64,000 nucleotides of DNA from Arenibacter echinorum (GTDB taxonomy: Bacteria; Bacteroidota; Bacteroidia; Flavobacteriales; Flavobacteriaceae): NCBI RefSeq assembly GCF_003259375.1, contig NZ_QLLN01000002.1, positions 620,001 to 684,000 of the forward strand. The letters are read 5' to 3'. Under the pieces are notes generated by a model. It searched no databases. It had not been told where the DNA came from and was given only the letters and a program-made list of their open reading frames with translations. The stretch's first letter is position 1; each line of letters starts with the position of its first letter. Of the stretch, positions 50,037 through 57,841 are shown in pieces. Made by a program: the position numbers and the translations under genes.

Positions 50037-50738
50037 ATGATACGAAAAACAGTTGCCAACGTGGAGGAGGCCTTGGAAGGAGTAAAGGACGGTATGACTT
50101 TTATGCTGGGAGGATTTGGATTATGTGGAATCCCTGAAAATGCGATTGCGGCATTGGTGAAGATGGGGGTAAAGGATTTAACCTGTATTTCCAATAATGC
50201 CGGAGTGGACGATTTTGGTCTTGGGCTCTTGTTGCACAAAAGACAGATAAAGAAAATGATTTCCTCTTATGTGGGGGAGAATGATGAGTTTGAACGGCAA
50301 ATGTTGAGCGGGGAATTGGACGTAGAATTAACGCCTCAAGGAACTTTAGCAGAGAAATGTAGGGCCGCACAGGCCGGTTTCCCCGCCTTTTATACTCCGG
50401 CCGGATATGGAACGGAAGTGGCCGAAGGAAAGGAGACTAGGGAGTTTAATGGGAAGATGTATGTGCTGGAGGAGGCTTTTAAGGCCGATTTTTCCTTTGT
50501 AAAAGCTTGGAAGGGCGATGAGGCTGGAAATTTAATATTTAAGGGTACTGCTCGTAATTTTAATCCTGCCATGTGTGGTGCGGCCAGGATTACGGTTGCT
50601 GAGGTGGAAGAGTTGGTACCGGCAGGAGAATTGAACCCCAACCAAATCCACGTCCCGGGAATTTTTGTACAACGTATCTTCCAAGGTAAAAATTACGAGA
50701 AAAGAATTGAGCAGTTGACAGTACGGAAAGTTAATTGA
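50037..50738 (+). CDS. scoA: CoA transferase subunit A (succinyl-CoA:3-ketoacid type)
   Basis: A 233-residue A subunit of a 3-oxoacid CoA-transferase, interconverting acetoacetate plus succinyl-CoA with acetoacetyl-CoA plus succinate. The glycine-rich [15 protein letters not shown] (about residues 22-36) and [11 protein letters not shown] are characteristic. The catalytic Glu lies in subunit B. Subunit B follows at 51151, but a four-helix-bundle gene sits between the two, which is unusual for scoA/scoB. Confidence 0.93.
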
Positions 50739-50770
50739 TTTGAAAGTTATCGGATTTGAAAATTTGATGA
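50737..50770 (+). repeat. Short degenerate direct repeats before the inserted gene
   Basis: GATTTGAAA occurs at 50737-50745 and 50753-50761, with a weaker third copy AATTTGATGA at 50761-50770. They lie exactly between the scoA stop and the ATG of the four-helix-bundle gene. TTTGAAAA-like repeats are, as I recall, a common companion of such genes in this group. Confidence 0.5.
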
Positions 50771-50771
50771 T

Positions 50772-51161
50772 ATGAGGAATGATAAGGAAAATTTAATAGT
50801 AAAGAAAACTTTCGATTTCTCCTTGCAAATTATTGAATATTGTGAAGAACTGAGAGCTTTAAATAAGTATGAAATGGCATCTCAATTGTTTAAAAGTGGA
50901 ACTTCTATTGGAGCAAATTCATGGGAGGCTCAAAATGGAGAAAGTTCTGCCGATTTTATACATAAATTTAAAATTGCAGCTAAAGAGGCTGATGAAACTT
51001 TATATTGGATAGAACGCTGCCAAGCCTCAAGGCACTATCCAAATCCGCAGGAAGCACTTTTTTCAGAGTTAGAATCTATCATTCGAATTATCTCGAAAAT
51101 TATTGGCATAAGTAAACGTGCCAAATTAACTAATTATCAAATCAACAATTATGTTGGATAA
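50772..51161 (+). CDS. Four-helix-bundle protein (S23/IVP family) inserted between scoA and scoB
   Basis: A 129-residue helical protein of the S23/IVP four-helix-bundle family, first known from intervening sequences in bacterial 23S rRNA. Core features are [19 protein letters not shown] (helix 2 start), [20 protein letters not shown], and a last helix [11 protein letters not shown] with a basic KRA end. It has no enzymatic motif and no signal peptide. It is visibly AT-richer than scoA and scoB, is preceded by short repeats, and its last 11 nt overlap the scoB start. It is a plausible mobile insert inside a two-subunit operon. The function of stand-alone members is not established. Confidence 0.85.
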
Positions 51162-51804
51162 AAACGGAATAGCAAAGCGCATTGCAAAGGAAGTCAAAGA
51201 CGGATATTATGTTAACCTGGGAATAGGGATACCTACTTTGGTGGCCAATTTTGTCAGGGATGATATCAGTGTAGAATTTCAAAGTGAAAACGGGGTGTTG
51301 GGAATGGGTCCCTTTCCTTTTGAAGGGGAAGAGGATGCCGATATCATCAACGCAGGCAAACAAACTATTACCACACTCCCGGGAGCCTCATTTTTCGACT
51401 CTGTAACGAGCTTTGGAATGATCAGGGGGCAACATGTAGACCTGACCATTTTGGGGGCCATGGAAGTCGCTGAAAACGGGGATATTGCCAATTGGAAAAT
51501 TCCCGGGAAAATGGTGAAGGGGATGGGTGGAGCTATGGACCTGGTGGCCTCCGCAGAGAATATAATCGTTGCCATGATGCATACCAATAGGGCAGGCGAA
51601 TCCAAGTTGTTAAAGAAATGCACTTTGCCATTGACGGGAGTTGGATGTGTAAAAAAAATTGTGACCAATTTGGCAGTACTGGATGTAACACCCAAGGGAT
51701 TTAAATTGTTGGAAAGGGCACCTGGAATTAGTGTCGATGAAATAGTAAAGGCTACTGAAGGAAATTTAATTGTGGAAGGTGATATCCCAGAGATGGATAT
51801 TTAG
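51151..51804 (+). CDS. scoB: CoA transferase subunit B
   Basis: The B subunit of the 3-oxoacid CoA-transferase, 217 residues, with [10 protein letters not shown] at about 23-32 and the catalytic Glu in [11 protein letters not shown] (about 46-56). PGASFFDS and [13 protein letters not shown] are also conserved. Its start overlaps the end of the inserted four-helix-bundle gene by 11 nt, so scoB translation may depend on that gene's stop. Confidence 0.93.
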
Positions 51805-52050
51805 GTGGGATTGTTCAATTAGGGGTGTCAGATTTTATTGAATTTTTATATTCTGACATATTTAAATAAACTGTCTTCATTTAACATTTTGGAAAGGGTT
51901 TATATCGATCAAAATAACTATTTTTATACGCATACAACAATTACTGTATGTTTCACAACAATTTTTTAAATGTTGCGTTAATCTGAATTATATTGCATTT
52001 AATAACAGAAGTTAAACCCCAAATTTAACAACTACTAAACCTTAATTACT
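51805..52050. other. Intergenic DNA with a weak inverted repeat and an A/C-rich leader
   Basis: An inverted repeat TGTCAGA/TCTGACA (51826-51832 with 51852-51858) follows scoB without a T-run, so it is at best a weak end signal. The last 40 or so bases before 52051 are an A/C-rich leader like the one before 5856. Confidence 0.4.
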
Positions 52051-52158
52051 ATGGAAGCCCAAATTAACCACAGCCGTACACAAAAAGAAATTCAAGTTTA
52101 TCGCAATGACTTTTTCACAGGCATTGTAAGATTGACTAAAAAATTATTTATGCTGTAG
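52051..52158 (+). CDS. Small conserved-looking protein, 35 residues
   Basis: The frame from ATG 52051 to TAG 52156-52158 encodes MEAQINHSRTQKEI...RLTKKLFML, 35 residues: a hydrophilic N-terminal half with a charged middle (QVYRNDFFTG) and a basic/hydrophobic end. I know of no family. Support comes from context: an A/C-rich leader upstream and a very strong terminator beginning 17 nt after the stop, with no other gene nearby on this strand. The alternative is a small regulatory RNA that uses the same terminator. Confidence 0.55.
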   Translation: MEAQINHSRTQKEIQVYRNDFFTGIVRLTKKLFML

Positions 52159-52175
52159 CATGAATCAATAGTTTA

Positions 52176-52213
52176 AAAAGGGAGCACTACTTTAAAGTAG
52201 TGCTCCCTTTTTT
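52176..52213 (+). terminator. Intrinsic terminator of the 35-codon gene
   Basis: A long perfect palindrome centred at 52193/52194 (AAGGGAGCACTACTTT with its complement) ending in six T's. It is one of the strongest terminators in the window. Confidence 0.92.
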
Positions 52214-52260
52214 GTTTTCAATCTAGTTGAAAATCGTAATTTTAAGAAGGAAAGAAAAGC

Positions 52261-52776
52261 ATGAAACTACACATGAGGCCTTGTGTCATTAAAGATTTGG
52301 GGGCTTTGGCGAATCTAGGCAGGAGGACCTTTATAGAGGCATTTGAAAAGGATAATAAGCCGGAGGATTTTAAGGAATATCTTGATTCTGCTTTTGGAGA
52401 GGAAAGGCTTTTAAAGGAACTTCAGGATATTAATTCATCCTATTATTTTATTCATAAGGATTCCAGTTTGGTGGGATACATTAAATTGAATGAAAATGAA
52501 TCCCAAACCGATATTAAGGATATTGATGCCATAGAGTTGGAGCGTATCTATGTATTAAGTGAATTTCAAGGCCAGGGAATTGGTGAGTGGATACTGGGGC
52601 AGGTAATATCCATTGCAAAAGCTAAAAATAGGTTATATGTTTGGCTTGGTGTTTGGGAGCACAACCCCAAGGCCATTAAATTTTATCAAAGATTGGGTTT
52701 TTATAAGTTTGGGAACCATCCGTATTTTATTGGTAAGGATGAACAAACGGATTGGCTTTTGCGGTTGGACATTTAA
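52261..52776 (+). CDS. GNAT family N-acetyltransferase
   Basis: A 171-residue acetyl-CoA-dependent N-acetyltransferase. The core beta-strand/P-loop is ELERIYVLSEFQGQGIGEWI (about residues 83-102, with QGQGIG as the pyrophosphate-binding loop), and RLGFYKFGNHPYFIG gives the usual C-terminal end. The N-terminal MRPCVIKDLGALANLGRRTF is typical. The substrate is unknown. It converges on the aminotransferase with a 27-nt gap. Confidence 0.9.
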   Translation: MKLHMRPCVIKDLGALANLGRRTFIEAFEKDNKPEDFKEYLDSAFGEERLLKELQDINSSYYFIHKDSSLVGYIKLNENESQTDIKDIDAIELERIYVLSEFQGQGIGEWILGQVISIAKAKNRLYVWLGVWEHNPKAIKFYQRLGFYKFGNHPYFIGKDEQTDWLLRLDI

Positions 52777-52803
52777 ATCTATGTTTCCATATAATAATGT
52801 TGA

Positions 52804-53961
52804 TTAAAGCTTGCTAAGAATTTCAGTAGCCCTTTCCAAAGTTTCGTTGGTTTTGGCAAAACAGAATCTCAGTAGGTGTTTGTCGATTCCTTTGGTGTTG
52901 AATCCGGAAATGGGAATGCTGGCTATTTGGTGTTTCGTTACCAGGCGTTCGGCGAAGACTTCGTCCGGTTCTTGGGTAATATCATTATAATCCACTAATT
53001 GAAAATAGGTTCCTTTGGAGGGTTTAATTTTAAATCTTGAAGTAGATAATCCTTCAAGAAATAGATCTCGCTTTTCTTGATAAAATTGGTTTAAACCCAA
53101 ATAGTGTTGAGGTTCTTTTAAATAAGAGGCTAGGGCTTTTTGAACGGCATGGTCCGCACTAAAGACGTTGAATTGATGCGTTTTTCGGAATTCGTGCATC
53201 AGTTCGACCGGACCCGCGCAATATCCCATTTTCCAGCCGGTTATGTGAAAGGTTTTTCCAAAGGAACCGCATACAAAGGTGCGGGAGGCGAGGCCATCAT
53301 ATTTTGAAGCACTTTCATGCTCAAGGCCGTCAAAGATAATATGTTCGTATACTTCATCGCTTATAACAATTATATCAGTATTTTCAAGACACTTTTGCAA
53401 TTCAAGCATATCCTCTTTTGAGAAAATGGTACCGCTGGGATTATGTGGAGTGTTTATTATGACCATTTTGGTCCTTGGTGTAATTTTGGAACGGAAAACC
53501 TCCCAATCTATCTTAAAATCGGTATTGTTTAATTGAACAAAAACGGGAACTCCCCCATTGACTTCAATGGCAGGCTCATAACAATCATAAGCTGGTTTAA
53601 TTACTATTACCTCATCACCACTGCCAACAAAGGCCGTAATGATGGTAAAAATGGCCTGTGTGGCCCCGATGGTGACGGTTATTTCGCTGTCCGGATTATA
53701 GTGTCTACCATAAAGTTGTTCAATTTTTGCTGCAATCATTTCGCGCAGTTCCATTACTCCTGCCATAGGGGCATATTGATTGTACCCCTGTTTCATGGCC
53801 TGTGTTACCAAATCGATCAAGGAAGGATCGGGCTCAAAATTAGGGAAGCCTTGGGAAAGATTTATGGCGTTGTGTTTCTGCGCCAAATGCCCCATAGTGG
53901 TAAAAATCGTAGTTTTTACTTTGGGAAGTTTAGAGACAATTTTGCGATTATATTTAGGCAT
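52804..53961 (-). CDS. PLP-dependent class I/II aminotransferase (methionine aminotransferase-like)
   Basis: A 385-residue fold-type I aminotransferase. NLSQGFPNFEPDP lies near residue 34, the pyridoxal-phosphate Asp is in VVISDEVYEHI, and the lysine is in CGSFGKTFHITGWKMGYC (about residues 230-247). Closest recollection is the methionine aminotransferase (YbdL-like) or kynurenine/glutamine transaminase group, so the exact amino acid is unsure. It is single, 30 nt upstream on the minus strand of nothing related, with the Vsr-like gene next along. Confidence 0.88.
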   Translation of the reverse strand: MPKYNRKIVSKLPKVKTTIFTTMGHLAQKHNAINLSQGFPNFEPDPSLIDLVTQAMKQGYNQYAPMAGVMELREMIAAKIEQLYGRHYNPDSEITVTIGATQAIFTIITAFVGSGDEVIVIKPAYDCYEPAIEVNGGVPVFVQLNNTDFKIDWEVFRSKITPRTKMVIINTPHNPSGTIFSKEDMLELQKCLENTDIIVISDEVYEHIIFDGLEHESASKYDGLASRTFVCGSFGKTFHITGWKMGYCAGPVELMHEFRKTHQFNVFSADHAVQKALASYLKEPQHYLGLNQFYQEKRDLFLEGLSTSRFKIKPSKGTYFQLVDYNDITQEPDEVFAERLVTKHQIASIPISGFNTKGIDKHLLRFCFAKTNETLERATEILSKL

Positions 53962-53991
53962 TTGAGATCGATTGAATTTGTTTTAGCTATA

Positions 53992-54465
53992 TCAGGATTG
54001 CTGTGATTGTAAATGGAAAATAACCTGATTTAGACATTGGTCCAGTTCTTTCTTAATTTCCCGTTCCCAAAATCTAAAAACGGTATAGCCCTGTTGTCGT
54101 AGCTCTTGGTTCACTTCCTTATCCCGTTGAATATTACGTTCAATTTTTGGAATCCAGAACTCCTTGTTCGTTTTAATTTTTTGTTTCCTTTCTTCCCAGT
54201 TATAACCATGCCAATATTCCCCATCAATAAAAATAACGGTTCTGTACTTTTTTAGTACTATATCCGGTTTGCCGATCAACTTCCTGTAGGCTATTCTATA
54301 CCGGTATCCTTCGGCCCAAAGGGCCTTTCTAAATTTCAATTCGGGGATGGTGTTTTTGCCCCGGATCTTGCCCATCATCTTGGAACGTTCCGGCGTGGTA
54401 TAAAAGCCGGACTCTTCATTAAAACGCGGAACTATTATCCGTTCTTCCTTGTATTCTTTTGGCAT
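53992..54465 (-). CDS. Vsr-like very-short-patch-repair endonuclease lacking zinc ligands
   Basis: A 157-residue nuclease-fold protein aligning with Vsr (and DUF559): TTPERSKMMGKIRGKNTIPE, FRKALWAEGYRYR, LIGKPDIVLKKYRTVIFIDG, then a C-terminal FRFWEREI. The catalytic Asp of GKPDIV is kept. The E. coli zinc signature, HGCFWHHHHC plus a later Cys, is replaced: the aligned piece reads DGEYWHGYNW and the later Cys is Arg. The first His is Asp. No dcm-type methyltransferase is in view, so whether it repairs T:G mismatches is doubtful. Family call by similarity is good. Confidence 0.75.
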   Translation of the reverse strand: MPKEYKEERIIVPRFNEESGFYTTPERSKMMGKIRGKNTIPELKFRKALWAEGYRYRIAYRKLIGKPDIVLKKYRTVIFIDGEYWHGYNWEERKQKIKTNKEFWIPKIERNIQRDKEVNQELRQQGYTVFRFWEREIKKELDQCLNQVIFHLQSQQS

Positions 54466-54501
54466 ACTTAAAGATACTGGATTTTTATAATATGAATAAA
54501 C

Positions 54502-54531
54502 AAAAACCCCATTCCTGAAAAGGGATGGGGT
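54502..54531 (-). terminator. Intrinsic terminator of the sdh operon
   Basis: Ten-bp stem (54506-54515 with 54522-54531, one G-T wobble) with a 6-nt loop. Read on the minus strand it ends in a T-run, 38 nt past the sdhB stop. Confidence 0.8.
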
Positions 54532-54568
54532 CTGTTTCTGTAGATTATAATTTTTATTTTAATCCGTA

Positions 54569-55315
54569 CTATCCTTTTATGCTGGCACTGAAAAACTCCC
54601 TGTTCATACGGGCAATGTTCTCCAAGGAAATTCCTTTAGGACATTCCACCTCACAAGCACCGGTATTGGTACAATTTCCAAATCCTTCCAAATCCATTTG
54701 GGCAACCATATTTTTTACTCGGTCCGTTGCTTCTATCTGCCCTTGTGGAAGTAAGGCGTATTGGGATACTTTGGCCCCAACGAACAACATGGCCGAAGAA
54801 TTTTTACAACTTGCCACACAGGCACCACAACCAATACAGGTAGCGGCATCCATGGCCTCATCGGCCGCATGCTTATCAATAGGAATGGCATTGGCATCCT
54901 GGGTATTTCCAGAAGTGTTGACCGAAATAAAACCGCCAGCTTGTTGAATACGATCAAATGAACTGCGGTCTACGACCAAATCCTTGATAACCGGAAAGGC
55001 TTTTGCCCTAAATGGTTCAATGGTAATGGTATCGCCATCCTTGAACATTCTCATATGCAACTGACATGTGGTAACCCCCCTATCCGGACCATGGGCTTCT
55101 CCATTGATATACATAGAGCACATACCGCAAATGCCTTCGCGACAGTCATGGTCAAAGGCAACTGGCTCGCCCCCTTTATTGGTGAGCTGTTCGTTTAAAA
55201 CGTCCATCATTTCCAAAAAAGACATGTGTTCTGAAATATCAGTCACTTTATACTCGACCATTTTACCTTTGTCCTGTGGTCCTTTCTGTCTCCAAATTTT
55301 TAATGTAAGATTCAT
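54569..55315 (-). CDS. sdhB: Succinate dehydrogenase/fumarate reductase iron-sulfur subunit
   Basis: A 248-residue three-cluster iron-sulfur subunit. The 2Fe-2S Cys set is CREGICGMC plus a later Cys (about residues 59-83); the 4Fe-4S/3Fe-4S sets are [11 protein letters not shown] and [11 protein letters not shown] (about 155-225). Electrons pass between the FAD subunit and the quinone site. It is separated from sdhA by a four-helix-bundle gene. Confidence 0.95.
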
Positions 55316-55424
55316 ATTGTTCTTGTTAATAAAAAGCTCCTTTCGGAATCTTCATAATTAAGTTTTATAATCAAAGTTCAGTTACGGAATACAGAAATAA
55401 GAGTTAAGAAAATAGACCTCTTTA

Positions 55425-55787
55425 TCACTGCAAACTATTTTGCAATCCCATTGTCATTTTTTGGAATTCCTCATTTTTTACTTCCAACTTTTCTAAAGTT
55501 TGTTCGTCTATATATTTTCTGTGGCGTGCAACTAATAATTGAGTGCCAAGTTCAAATGATGAACCTAAAGAAATATCGAGAAAATAAGAAAATGACTTGT
55601 CTGTTCTTGCTGATCCTTCAGCTATATTACTCGGCATCGAAATTGAACATCGGCTTAATTGATTACTTAGATCAAATTTTTCGTGCTTGGGAAACTCCAG
55701 CAAAATATCAGAAATGTCATTTGCAATTTCTAACCCCAATTGCCAGATTTTCAAATTTTTATAATTATGTCGCTGACGAAAGGCCAT
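55425..55787 (-). CDS. Four-helix-bundle protein (S23/IVP family) inserted between sdhA and sdhB
   Basis: A 120-residue helical protein with the classical IVP/S23 signature: NLKIWQLGLEIANDI, FDLSNQLSRCSISMPSNIAE, GSARTDKSFSYFLDISLGS, FELGTQLLVARH. It is a different subgroup from the one at 50772, with no close similarity along the chain. It lies 38 nt after the sdhA stop and 109 nt before the sdhB start, and is AT-richer than its neighbours. sdhA and sdhB are normally adjacent in this group, so this looks like an insertion. The function is unknown. Confidence 0.87.
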   Translation of the reverse strand: MAFRQRHNYKNLKIWQLGLEIANDISDILLEFPKHEKFDLSNQLSRCSISMPSNIAEGSARTDKSFSYFLDISLGSSFELGTQLLVARHRKYIDEQTLEKLEVKNEEFQKMTMGLQNSLQ

Positions 55788-55825
55788 TAAGTCTTTTTTC
55801 TCTTCTCTTTTTTCTTCACTAACAC

Positions 55826-57841
55826 TTATTTATAACTTCTTTGTTTTAATTCTATATCCTTAAATTCCAATTGCTCCTTGTGCAAAACGGCTTCTGAAGG
55901 TTCCCCTTTGTATTCCCAAGCTGCTACGAAAGCATAATCTTTATCGTTACGTTTTGCTTCCCCTTTTTGCTCGCCATCGATTTCAACAGACTCTTCACGG
56001 AAATGTCCTCCACAAGATTCCTCTCGCATTAAGGCATCCTTGGCGAATAATTCGCCTAATTCCAAGAAATCGGCGACTCTTCCTGCTTTCTCTAATTCAG
56101 GATTCATTTCATTGGCTGATCCAGGGACTTTTACTTCTTTATAAAATTCTTCACGGATTGCCTTAATTTCTGCCATAGCTTCTTTTAGGCCTTCAGCGTT
56201 ACGTGACATACCACATTTATCCCACATAACTTTACCTAAACGTTTATGGAAATAATCTACCGAATGTGTTCCCTTGTTGTTGACAAAGAAGTTGATTCTT
56301 TCTGTTACTTCCTTTTCCGCTTGATCAAATTCGGGCGTATCTGTAGGAATTTTTCCAGTTCTAATTTCATGGGATAAATAATCCCCAATAGTGTAAGGTA
56401 ATACAAAATAACCATCGGCCAAACCTTGCATTAAAGCAGATGCTCCCAATCGGTTGGCACCATGATCGGAGAAATTGGCCTCCCCTATGCAATATAAACC
56501 TTCAACAGTGGTCATTAGGTTGTAATCTACCCAAACACCGCCCATAGTATAATGGGTCGCGGGATAGATCATCATTGGGGTCTTATATGGATTTTCATCT
56601 ACGATTTTTTCGTACATCTGAAACAGGTTACCATATTTTTCCTCTACAACTGCTTCGCCCAGTGCAGTAATTTTTTCTTTGGATGCATCCTGTATTCCGT
56701 GAATTTTAGCCTGTTCCAAACCGTATCTTTCAATGGCCGCTTTAAAATCAAGATATACGGCTTCCCCAGTGGCGTTAACACCATAGCCGGCATCACATCT
56801 TTCTTTCGCCGCCCTGGAAGCCACGTCCCGTGGCACTAAATTTCCAAAGGCAGGATATCTTCTTTCCAAATAGTAATCCCTTTGATCTTCGCTCAATTGG
56901 GTAGGCTTTAATTTTCCTTCCCTAATGGCCAACACATCTTCCATATTTTTAGGAACCCATATACGGCCATCGTTACGCAATGACTCGGACATCAGGGTTA
57001 GTTTAGATTGATAATCTCCAGATCTTGGGATACAGGTTGGGTGAATTTGGGTATAACATGGGTTGGCAAAAAATGCCCCTTTTTTGTGTATTTTCCAGGC
57101 CGCGGTGGCATTGGATCCCATGGCATTAGTAGAAAGGAAATAAACATTTCCATATCCTCCGGAGGCAATTACTACTGCATGTGCCGAATGGCGCTCTATT
57201 TCCCCGGTAACCAAGTTACGGGCTATAATACCCCGTGCCTTGCCATTTACCTTAACCACATCCAGCATTTCGTGGCGATTAAACATTTCTATTTTACCCC
57301 GGGCAATTTGTCTATTCATGGCCGAATAGGCCCCTAACAATAATTGCTGGCCTGTTTGTCCTTTGGCATAAAAAGTACGCGACACTAAAACACCACCAAA
57401 AGAGCGGTTATCAAGTAATCCACCGTAATCACGGGCGAATGGCACCCCTTGTGCCACACATTGATCGATTATATTGGTAGACACCTCTGCCAAACGGTAC
57501 ACGTTGGCTTCTCGGGAGCGGTAATCCCCACCCTTTACGGTATCATAGAACAAGCGATAGGTAGAATCCCCATCCCCTTGATAATTTTTTGCGGCATTTA
57601 TACCTCCTTGAGCTGCAATGGAATGCGCCCTACGTGGGGAATCCTGATAGCAGAATGCTTTAACCCTATAACCTAGTTCGGCCAAGGTTGCAGCGGCAGA
57701 ACCTCCTGCAAGGCCGGTACCCACAACAATAACGTCGATGTTTCGCTTATTGGCAGGATTAACTAAGTTTATTTTATCCTTATAAGTAGTCCATTTATCC
57801 TTTAATGGGCCTTTTGGTATTTTAGAATCCAATACAGACAT
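55826..57841 (-). CDS. sdhA: Succinate dehydrogenase/fumarate reductase flavoprotein subunit
   Basis: A 671-residue FAD subunit that oxidises succinate (or reduces fumarate). The dinucleotide-binding [20 protein letters not shown] (about residues 35-54) is followed by [16 protein letters not shown], whose His binds FAD covalently in the family. [11 protein letters not shown]-type substrate-binding and [14 protein letters not shown] near the C-terminus are intact. The length is at the long end of the family, as usual for Bacteroidota enzymes. It follows sdhC by 12 nt. Confidence 0.96.

Follow-up and report, generated by a model that had tools for sequence, protein, structure and literature searches.

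Introduction

Why should a small gene of unexplained role separate two genes that encode subunits of the same enzyme, at two places in one stretch of DNA? The question is raised by a 64,000-nucleotide (nt) stretch of Arenibacter echinorum (contig NZ_QLLN01000002.1, positions 620,001 to 684,000; hereafter the window), which belongs to a 5.19-Mb genome labelled G000 here. A sequence-only reading had placed a gene for a four-helix-bundle protein between scoA and scoB, and a second one between sdhA and sdhB (Table 1). It had proposed either a dispersed insertion family that occupies gaps inside operons or a regulator of subunit stoichiometry. Both genes belong to the "four helix bundle protein / S23" family, which is widespread in Bacteroidota yet unexplained. 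It is also the family of the 23S rRNA intervening-sequence protein (IVP), and the two genes are called IVP1 and IVP2 below.

The simplest account of the sequences would be a family of insertions that stay at particular intercistronic sites, with only the insert itself being exchanged between species. The anatomy of the inserts, their placement and orientation, the turnover at junctions, hairpins devoid of an open reading frame (ORF), purifying selection on the ORF and similarity limited to the insert can all be read from the sequences. Since the inserts resemble an rRNA intervening sequence (IVS) in the family of their ORF, in size, in heptamers and in inverted repeats at the ends, we take them, with moderate confidence, to be the intercistronic counterparts of IVP-coding 23S rRNA IVSs, spreading in a homing-like manner.

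Identity of the two genes

Both genes score above the curated cut-offs of PF05635 (33.8 bits) and TIGR02436 (24 bits), which bears out their identification within the two host pairs. A profile built from nine IVPs matches the solved chains 2rld and 2gsc, and 2gsc is the PDB relative of IVP2 (E = 2.7e-13); these scores and matches support the suggested kinship to the proteins of 23S IVSs. IVP1 is predicted to fold as a four-helix bundle, with helices at residues 4-29, 33-54, 59-85 and 94-127 of the model and a mean predicted local distance difference test score (pLDDT) of 85.3. Homopentamers are a further mark of the family; the IVP1 model is of a single chain. The two proteins do belong to different subgroups. 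Pairwise BLASTP finds no real alignment between them (E = 3.0), and the midpoint-root branch (100/99) separates them in an IVP tree of the genus, which covers 64 of 81 rows and carries a long-branch warning. The IVP genes are AT-richer than their hosts, as had been noted, with a GC content of 32.3% and 33.6% vs 42.7-45.4% in the four host genes. One detail needs correction at scoA-scoB, where the stop of IVP1 overlaps the start of scoB by 11 nt (51151-51161). No transposase domain was found in either insert, and the IVP ORFs match PF05635 alone, together with bAvd below its cut-off.

The bAvd match touches on a rival explanation, in which the inserts are diversity-generating retroelements (DGRs) or other elements driven by a reverse transcriptase (RT), with the IVP in the role of Avd. 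IVP2 matches bAvd (PF22296) at 24 bits and Avd (NF033474) at 21.9 bits, and structural homology of Avd and PF05635 has been suggested, according to the excerpt of PMC10053308. The likeness to Avd and bAvd is that of a homologous structure family. Both scores, however, lie under the cut-offs (40 and 80 bits, respectively), and the RT domain RVT_1 (PF00078) has 0 matches in the window genome; IVP-rich genomes such as G038, G046, G021, G128 and G066 are likewise listed without a PF00078 match. We regard a retroelement as very improbable, and dependence on an RT was rejected because RVT_1 is missing from the window genome. In the family of the window genome, G120 has nineteen RVT_1 matches, many of them equal in score, which suggests that it holds an expanded RT element.

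Distribution and placement

The two cases are more than chance. The window genome has five PF05635 genes, each within a co-directional gene pair, and the further three stand at fadB-fadA, ffh-folD and ruvC-hemW. All 18 genomes of the genus, the window genome included, have PF05635 matches (2-8 each), and clustering resolves 84 IVP sites. Both neighbours have the orientation of the IVP at 81 of the 84 sites; at two of the remaining three, a short downstream ORF (76 and 84 aa) runs against the IVP, and one lies at a contig end. Six recurring junctions take up 75 of the 84 sites. The genomes with an IVP, out of 18, number 18 for scoA-scoB, 17 for ruvC-hemW, 12 for fadB-fadA (a count that leaves out six genomes without a fetched IVP locus), 10 for sufC-sufD, 9 for sdhA-sdhB and 9 for ffh-folD (13 if remnants count). 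The proposal of a family dispersed in intra-operon gaps is thus supported, as IVPs also occur between further paired genes, some of which encode subunits, both in this genome and in others.

This placement extends across the phylum. PF05635 was matched in 90 of 118 sampled Bacteroidota genomes, with up to 16 matches each, and in 0 of 14 control genomes. The neighbours were classified for 73 IVPs in 70 phylum loci (the 30 best-scoring and 40 hand-picked for spread among the matches listed): 57 IVPs have both neighbours in sense, 6 have both in antisense, 7 have opposed neighbours and 3 are incomplete. Sense is strongly preferred among the co-directional cases (57 vs 6, p = 1.6e-11). Ordinary gene pairs in 80 named loci are co-directional in 71% of cases, so that 35% would be expected to be sense co-directional, and the 57 of 70 observed exceed this expectation (p = 4e-15). 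Recurring phylum junctions include fadB-fadA (with 5 loci from outside the genus), PaaI-like thioesterase-thiolase (4), thiolase-acyl-CoA dehydrogenase (4), nuoC-nuoD (3) and a 2-oxoacid dehydrogenase E2-E3 pair (2); the names other than nuoC, nuoD and PaaI were judged by eye. An insert would occupy, in sense direction, the space between two genes that run the same way and are probably transcribed together.

Plasmids of Cyanobacteria carry IVPs as well. In 12 of 39 plasmid records, two of which (L318 and L319) are nearly identical, 9 of the 12 IVP loci are sense co-directional. The order cas6-IVP-cas4 is found in two of the 12 (L321, 1498-1866; L323, 1504-1863), and long direct AAAAGCT/AAAAGCC arrays lie on both sides of the IVP in L323. 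Phages were rejected as carriers after one IVP query against them gave no match, and Rfam gave none on eight IVP loci whose flanking genes are missing or antisense, where an rRNA location was possible. Two genus sites have unusual surroundings. One IVP of G003 (C1:3503747, L087) stands between two polysaccharide-type genes and has exceptionally long arms rich in repeats, about 390-420 nt to either side, and a partial, decayed tandem IVP duplicate lies behind the first copy in the scoA-scoB gap of G010 (L066).

Repeat arms

An insert would measure about 400-500 nt and consist of an array of 7- or 8-nt repeats, the IVP ORF and an inverted array. The arm sequence differs from insert to insert, and what the inserts have in common is the kind of arm: 7- or 8-nt repeats that are usually inverted around the ORF. 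In 22 genus representatives, the lag-7 autocorrelation of the arms is 0.382 vs 0.302 in shuffled sequence (z 11.2); smaller peaks stand at lags 8, 14 and 16. The arm set leaves out the 3 of 84 sites without a co-directional neighbour on one side, and the representatives exclude copies split over two frames; some decayed single-piece copies were kept, so their "arms" include old coding sequence. When arms were limited to the gap, inverse pairing was significant overall (combined p = 1e-11 over 20 representatives). The arms of IVP2 match each other in inverted orientation with a score of 25 vs a shuffle mean of 14.4 (p = 0.007), and those of the G001 ortholog of the scoA-scoB insert are also inverted (p = 0.003).

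The same holds outside the genus. The arms of the 73 phylum IVPs have lag-7 values of 0.400/0.384 vs 0.327/0.302 around 223 control genes, and an inverted-arm score of at least 24 is reached by 34 of the 73 IVPs vs 10 of the 223 control genes, the controls being drawn from Flavobacteriaceae-centred loci and the IVPs from the whole phylum. A swapped-arm control is free of this mismatch. In it, own arms beat swapped arms (p = 2e-23), and the own downstream arm ranks best of 73 in 25 phylum IVPs. At the cyanobacterial plasmid loci, the lag-7 values are 0.505/0.495, and 8 of 12 have inverted arms at p < 0.05.

Occupied, empty and ORF-less junctions

At sdhA-sdhB, 9 of the 18 genus genomes have no IVP. 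Three genomes (G000, G016 and G017) carry a type A IVP, and six (G004, G005, G006, G011, G012 and G015) carry a type B IVP that is 38-43% identical to IVP2. Among named relatives, represented by the best 80 of 594 confirmed loci (three are from Arenibacter and overlap the genus set), an IVP is present in 5, the gap is at most 35 nt in 63 (at most 12 nt in 50), and 12 have a longer gap without an IVP. Eight of these 12 show a hairpin and a 7-nt period; the period is missing in L201 and L219. In L258 (a metagenome-assembled genome (MAG) of Flavobacteriaceae) and L262, the gaps are 1695 and 606 nt long and hold apparently other genes and no IVP. The sdhA-sdhB junction may accept unrelated inserts too.

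ORF-less gaps within the genus often retain a hairpin of this kind. A 7-nt period (z 3.1-6.5) and a hairpin (z -1.7 to -6.3) occur together in 8 of the 9 ORF-less sdhA-sdhB gaps and in the four ORF-less sufC-sufD gaps tested, those of G000, G003, G006 and G013. Elsewhere, arrays of this period are rare. Among 377 intergenic gaps of 45-350 nt (the window and 77 named loci, L197-L199 being left out), six pass a lag-7 z of 4.5, and five of the six are sdhA-sdhB gaps; control lags of 5, 6, 8 and 9 gave 1, 1, 0 and 0 passing gaps. The scoA-scoB junction is readable in 8 of the 80 named loci. It holds an IVP in three Arenibacter and one MAG, has a 4-nt gap in three Maribacter records and has 396 nt without an IVP in one Cellulophaga. 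Comparison of relatives, which the sequence-only reading had advised, thus reveals short gaps at both junctions.

These data bear on a second explanation, namely that IVP genes joined the operons long ago, as ordinary members or to regulate the ratio of the two products, in a single gain followed by sporadic loss. At scoA-scoB this has some appeal: the IVP is present in 18 of 18 genus genomes and its 15 intact rows form one clade, and the stop of IVP1 overlaps the start of scoB. The ORF itself is maintained. Across nine subtypes built from intact copies, one of which is a single pair, its median dN/dS is 0.06-0.12, and judging from this ratio of about 0.1 it is under purifying selection, as expected of an operon member. 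Against such an origin stand the two separate IVP lineages and the ORF-less forms at sdhA-sdhB, the very short gap there in most relatives, the stop-bearing copies and remnants present at several junctions, and the lack of an evident common function among the host pairs. We consider an old operon member improbable overall; it was rejected for sdhA-sdhB and only in part for scoA-scoB. The pattern that the sequence-only reading would have taken to refute insertions, namely the same gene in nearly all relatives with a host-like phylogeny, holds within the genus for scoA-scoB (18 of 18 genomes, one clade) and fails for sdhA-sdhB (9 of 18 genomes, two separate lineages), and the fixed presence at scoA-scoB ends at the three Maribacter records. 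A role in subunit stoichiometry is unsupported: at one and the same junction, closely related sister species may have an insert of another type, a broken one or none.

Apparent exchange of inserts between species

A species tree of the 18 genomes was built from four genes. On it, 6 changes are required for the sdh state and 7 for the two allele types at sco, and the sister genomes G011 and G017 carry different sdh inserts. On the IVP tree, the clustering of junction labels is nearly perfect, with 12 changes (minimum 10): sco forms one clade, sdh, fadBA, sufCD and ffh-folD have two changes each, and ruvC-hemW has three.

Among 162 comparable pairs, the insert exceeds both flanks in similarity in 64 and falls below both in 65. 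In 21 of the 162 pairs, which share genomes and are not independent, the similarity of the insert is far above that predicted from the flanks, also when corrected by Bonferroni. The most extreme pair is the sdh insert of G011 and G012, with 2 substitutions in 446 nt (99.6% identity) vs 85.2% in sdhA and 89.8% in sdhB. The nearest flank mismatches of this pair are 45 and 63 nt away, so that any co-transferred flank must have been short. Several inserts appear, from these comparisons, to have passed between species without their neighbours.

A third explanation would do without any activity of the IVP. The 7-8-nt arrays would be slippage products like other bacterial heptamer repeats, the IVP a passive rider, and the exchange ordinary homologous recombination over short tracts. 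Repeat number does vary between orthologs, as slippage predicts: sdh type B inserts are 447, 454 and 461 nt or 446 and 453 nt long, and those of G011 and G012 are 7 indel columns apart. TAACTGA heptamers are also described in Bacteroidetes and Cyanobacteria without mention of an IVP in the excerpt of PMC4679880. On the other hand, the arms are mutually inverted around the ORF and fit their own partner better than others, arrays of lag 7 are seldom seen in other gaps, and similarity is confined to the insert in the 21 pairs. This explanation is unlikely in our view, though it is the strongest of the three rivals.

Proposed mechanism and its weaknesses

If the inserts are a homing-like insertion family, the IVP would bind the repeat arms and would aid its own insert in taking the place of another allele, empty or of a different type, at that junction. 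RNase III would cut the hairpin in the mRNA as it does in rRNA. An extra hairpin between cistrons would be harmless, even if cut out without ligation, because each cistron stays whole.

Several observations weigh against this account. The arms are not universal: when limited to the gap they reach p < 0.05 in only 11 of 20 representatives, with fixed 150-nt flanks 8 of 33 genus loci beat all 100 shuffles, and the inverted-arm test is not significant for the window copy of IVP1. The Tandem Repeats Finder (TRF) periods of the window copies are 16 (IVP1) and 12 (IVP2), not heptameric, and the arrays are direct and not inverted in genus insert G014:C59 and plasmid locus L323. Three of the ORF-less hairpins of genus sdhA-sdhB gaps are weak (z -1.7 to -2.1). 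A terminal motif common to all copies had been suggested as a mark of the family, and no common terminal sequence is apparent by eye in the genus arms compared; the common feature is architectural, namely the inverted 7-8-nt arrays. No target-site duplication was noticed in the aligned sdh junctions, where no dedicated search was made. Within the genus, the IVP lineage tracks the junction, and jumps between junctions would thus be rare. Short recombination tracts could also yield insert-limited similarity, and the 44 nt of sdhA and 62 nt of sdhB closest to the insert carry no information on this. Wobble pairs show no enrichment on the sense strand (68 vs 62), nor is there a difference between sense and antisense duplex energies (p = 0.93), in a test that leaves out L319, so there is no sign of a constraint on the RNA strand. 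Pairing specific to the RNA strand was rejected on these two results.

Relation to known systems

The closest known system is the IVS in the 23S rRNA of Coxiella. In the excerpt of PMC4990558 it is 428 nt long, with an S23p ORF, a GC content below that of the genome and a 28-bp terminal inverted-repeat stem. Tandem GACAGAT heptamers, three or in some strains two, precede the S23p ORF, and RNase III, which excises the IVS, has one of its cleavage positions at the first of these repeats (PMC4990558). The intercistronic inserts are alike in the IVP/S23p ORF, the size, the terminal inverted repeats and the low GC content. In the family as a whole, the lag-7 excess of the arms resembles the Coxiella heptamers, and the repeats vary in copy number in both; for the two window copies, the TRF periods are the 16 and 12 given above. 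They differ in location, since the Coxiella IVS lies inside rRNA and the window copies lie between protein genes. The Coxiella IVS is sporadic and thought to be horizontally acquired, with an ORF thought to be unexpressed and decaying (PMC4990558, excerpt), in contrast to the dN/dS of about 0.1 for intercistronic IVPs. RNase III excision is demonstrated there and is predicted for the intercistronic inserts. IVP ORFs are also reported in rRNA insertions of candidate phyla radiation (CPR) bacteria in the excerpt of PMC11270868.

TAACTGA heptamer repeats of Bacteroidetes, Cyanobacteria and Beggiatoaceae (MacGregor 2015; PMC4679880) are likewise intergenic 7-nt arrays; they differ in being mainly direct repeats, and the excerpt mentions no IVP gene. 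Bacterial satellites derived from heptamers are described without a link to IVP in the excerpt of PMC6749651. In Flavobacterium columnare, Table 5 of PMC5524665 lists under phage elements a four helix bundle gene that has guanylate kinase on one side and a nicotinate-nucleotide adenylyltransferase on the other; from this part of the source, the stretch looks like an intra-operon insert of the same kind. Among the matches listed in a PMC literature search, judged by titles and abstract starts and with subscription journals mostly outside its scope, none links IVP genes to heptamer arms or intra-operon insertion, except the Coxiella paper for the heptamers.

A wider proposal is more tentative, and we hold it at somewhat below even chances. 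IVP genes may form a cross-phylum class of homing-like "transcript intervening sequences", with the ORF in a hairpin loop, that spread from one allele to the next into gaps between cistrons. Those in rRNA would just have been the first to be noticed, and ORF-less remnants of the class would make up some of the heptamer arrays known from Bacteroidota and Cyanobacteria. STRR is an older name for the heptamer repeats of Cyanobacteria. REP/RAYT systems and miniature inverted-repeat transposable elements (MITEs) offer a parallel, as they too have palindromic ORF-less copies alongside ORF-bearing relatives. They differ in that the search found no transposase domain in the two window inserts, and the repeat is particular to each insert and not genome-wide. 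If the inserts are indeed the counterparts, within operons, of rRNA IVSs, the role of IVP and the movement of IVSs become testable in easily grown bacteria with selected copies, and some heptamer arrays gain an origin. Operon annotation should then class the inserts with mobile elements, not with genes tied to the subunits.

Features of the window

Table 1. Positions of the two inserts and their host genes, counted from the first nucleotide of the window.
Feature	Position	Strand	Evidence
scoA, 3-oxoacid CoA-transferase subunit A, host gene	50037..50738	+	TIGR02429 270.1 bits
Left repeat array of scoA-scoB insert, overlaps scoA end	50726..50771	+	TRF 50726-50761, period 16, 85% matches
IVP1 gene, four-helix bundle protein	50772..51161	+	PF05635 67.2 bits, TIGR02436 82.1 bits
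Right repeat array of scoA-scoB insert, overlaps IVP1 3' end	51122..51152	+	TRF period 16, 87% matches
scoB, 3-oxoacid CoA-transferase subunit B, host gene	51151..51804	+	TIGR02428 319.9 bits
sdhB, host gene	54569..55315	-	NF005746 434.3 bits
Right arm of sdhA-sdhB insert	55393..55417	-	Coordinates set by hand from arm alignment
IVP2 gene, four-helix bundle protein	55425..55787	-	PF05635 101 bits, TIGR02436 93 bits
Left arm of sdhA-sdhB insert, purine-rich repeats	55788..55825	-	Inverted match to 55393-55417; TRF 55792-55817
sdhA, host gene	55826..57841	-	NF005749 1171.7 bits

A 123-aa ORF on the strand opposite IVP2 had no match. Between scoB and the downstream ORF 52261-52776, a perfect 19-bp inverted repeat with zero spacer is present at 52175-52212 and is probably a terminator.

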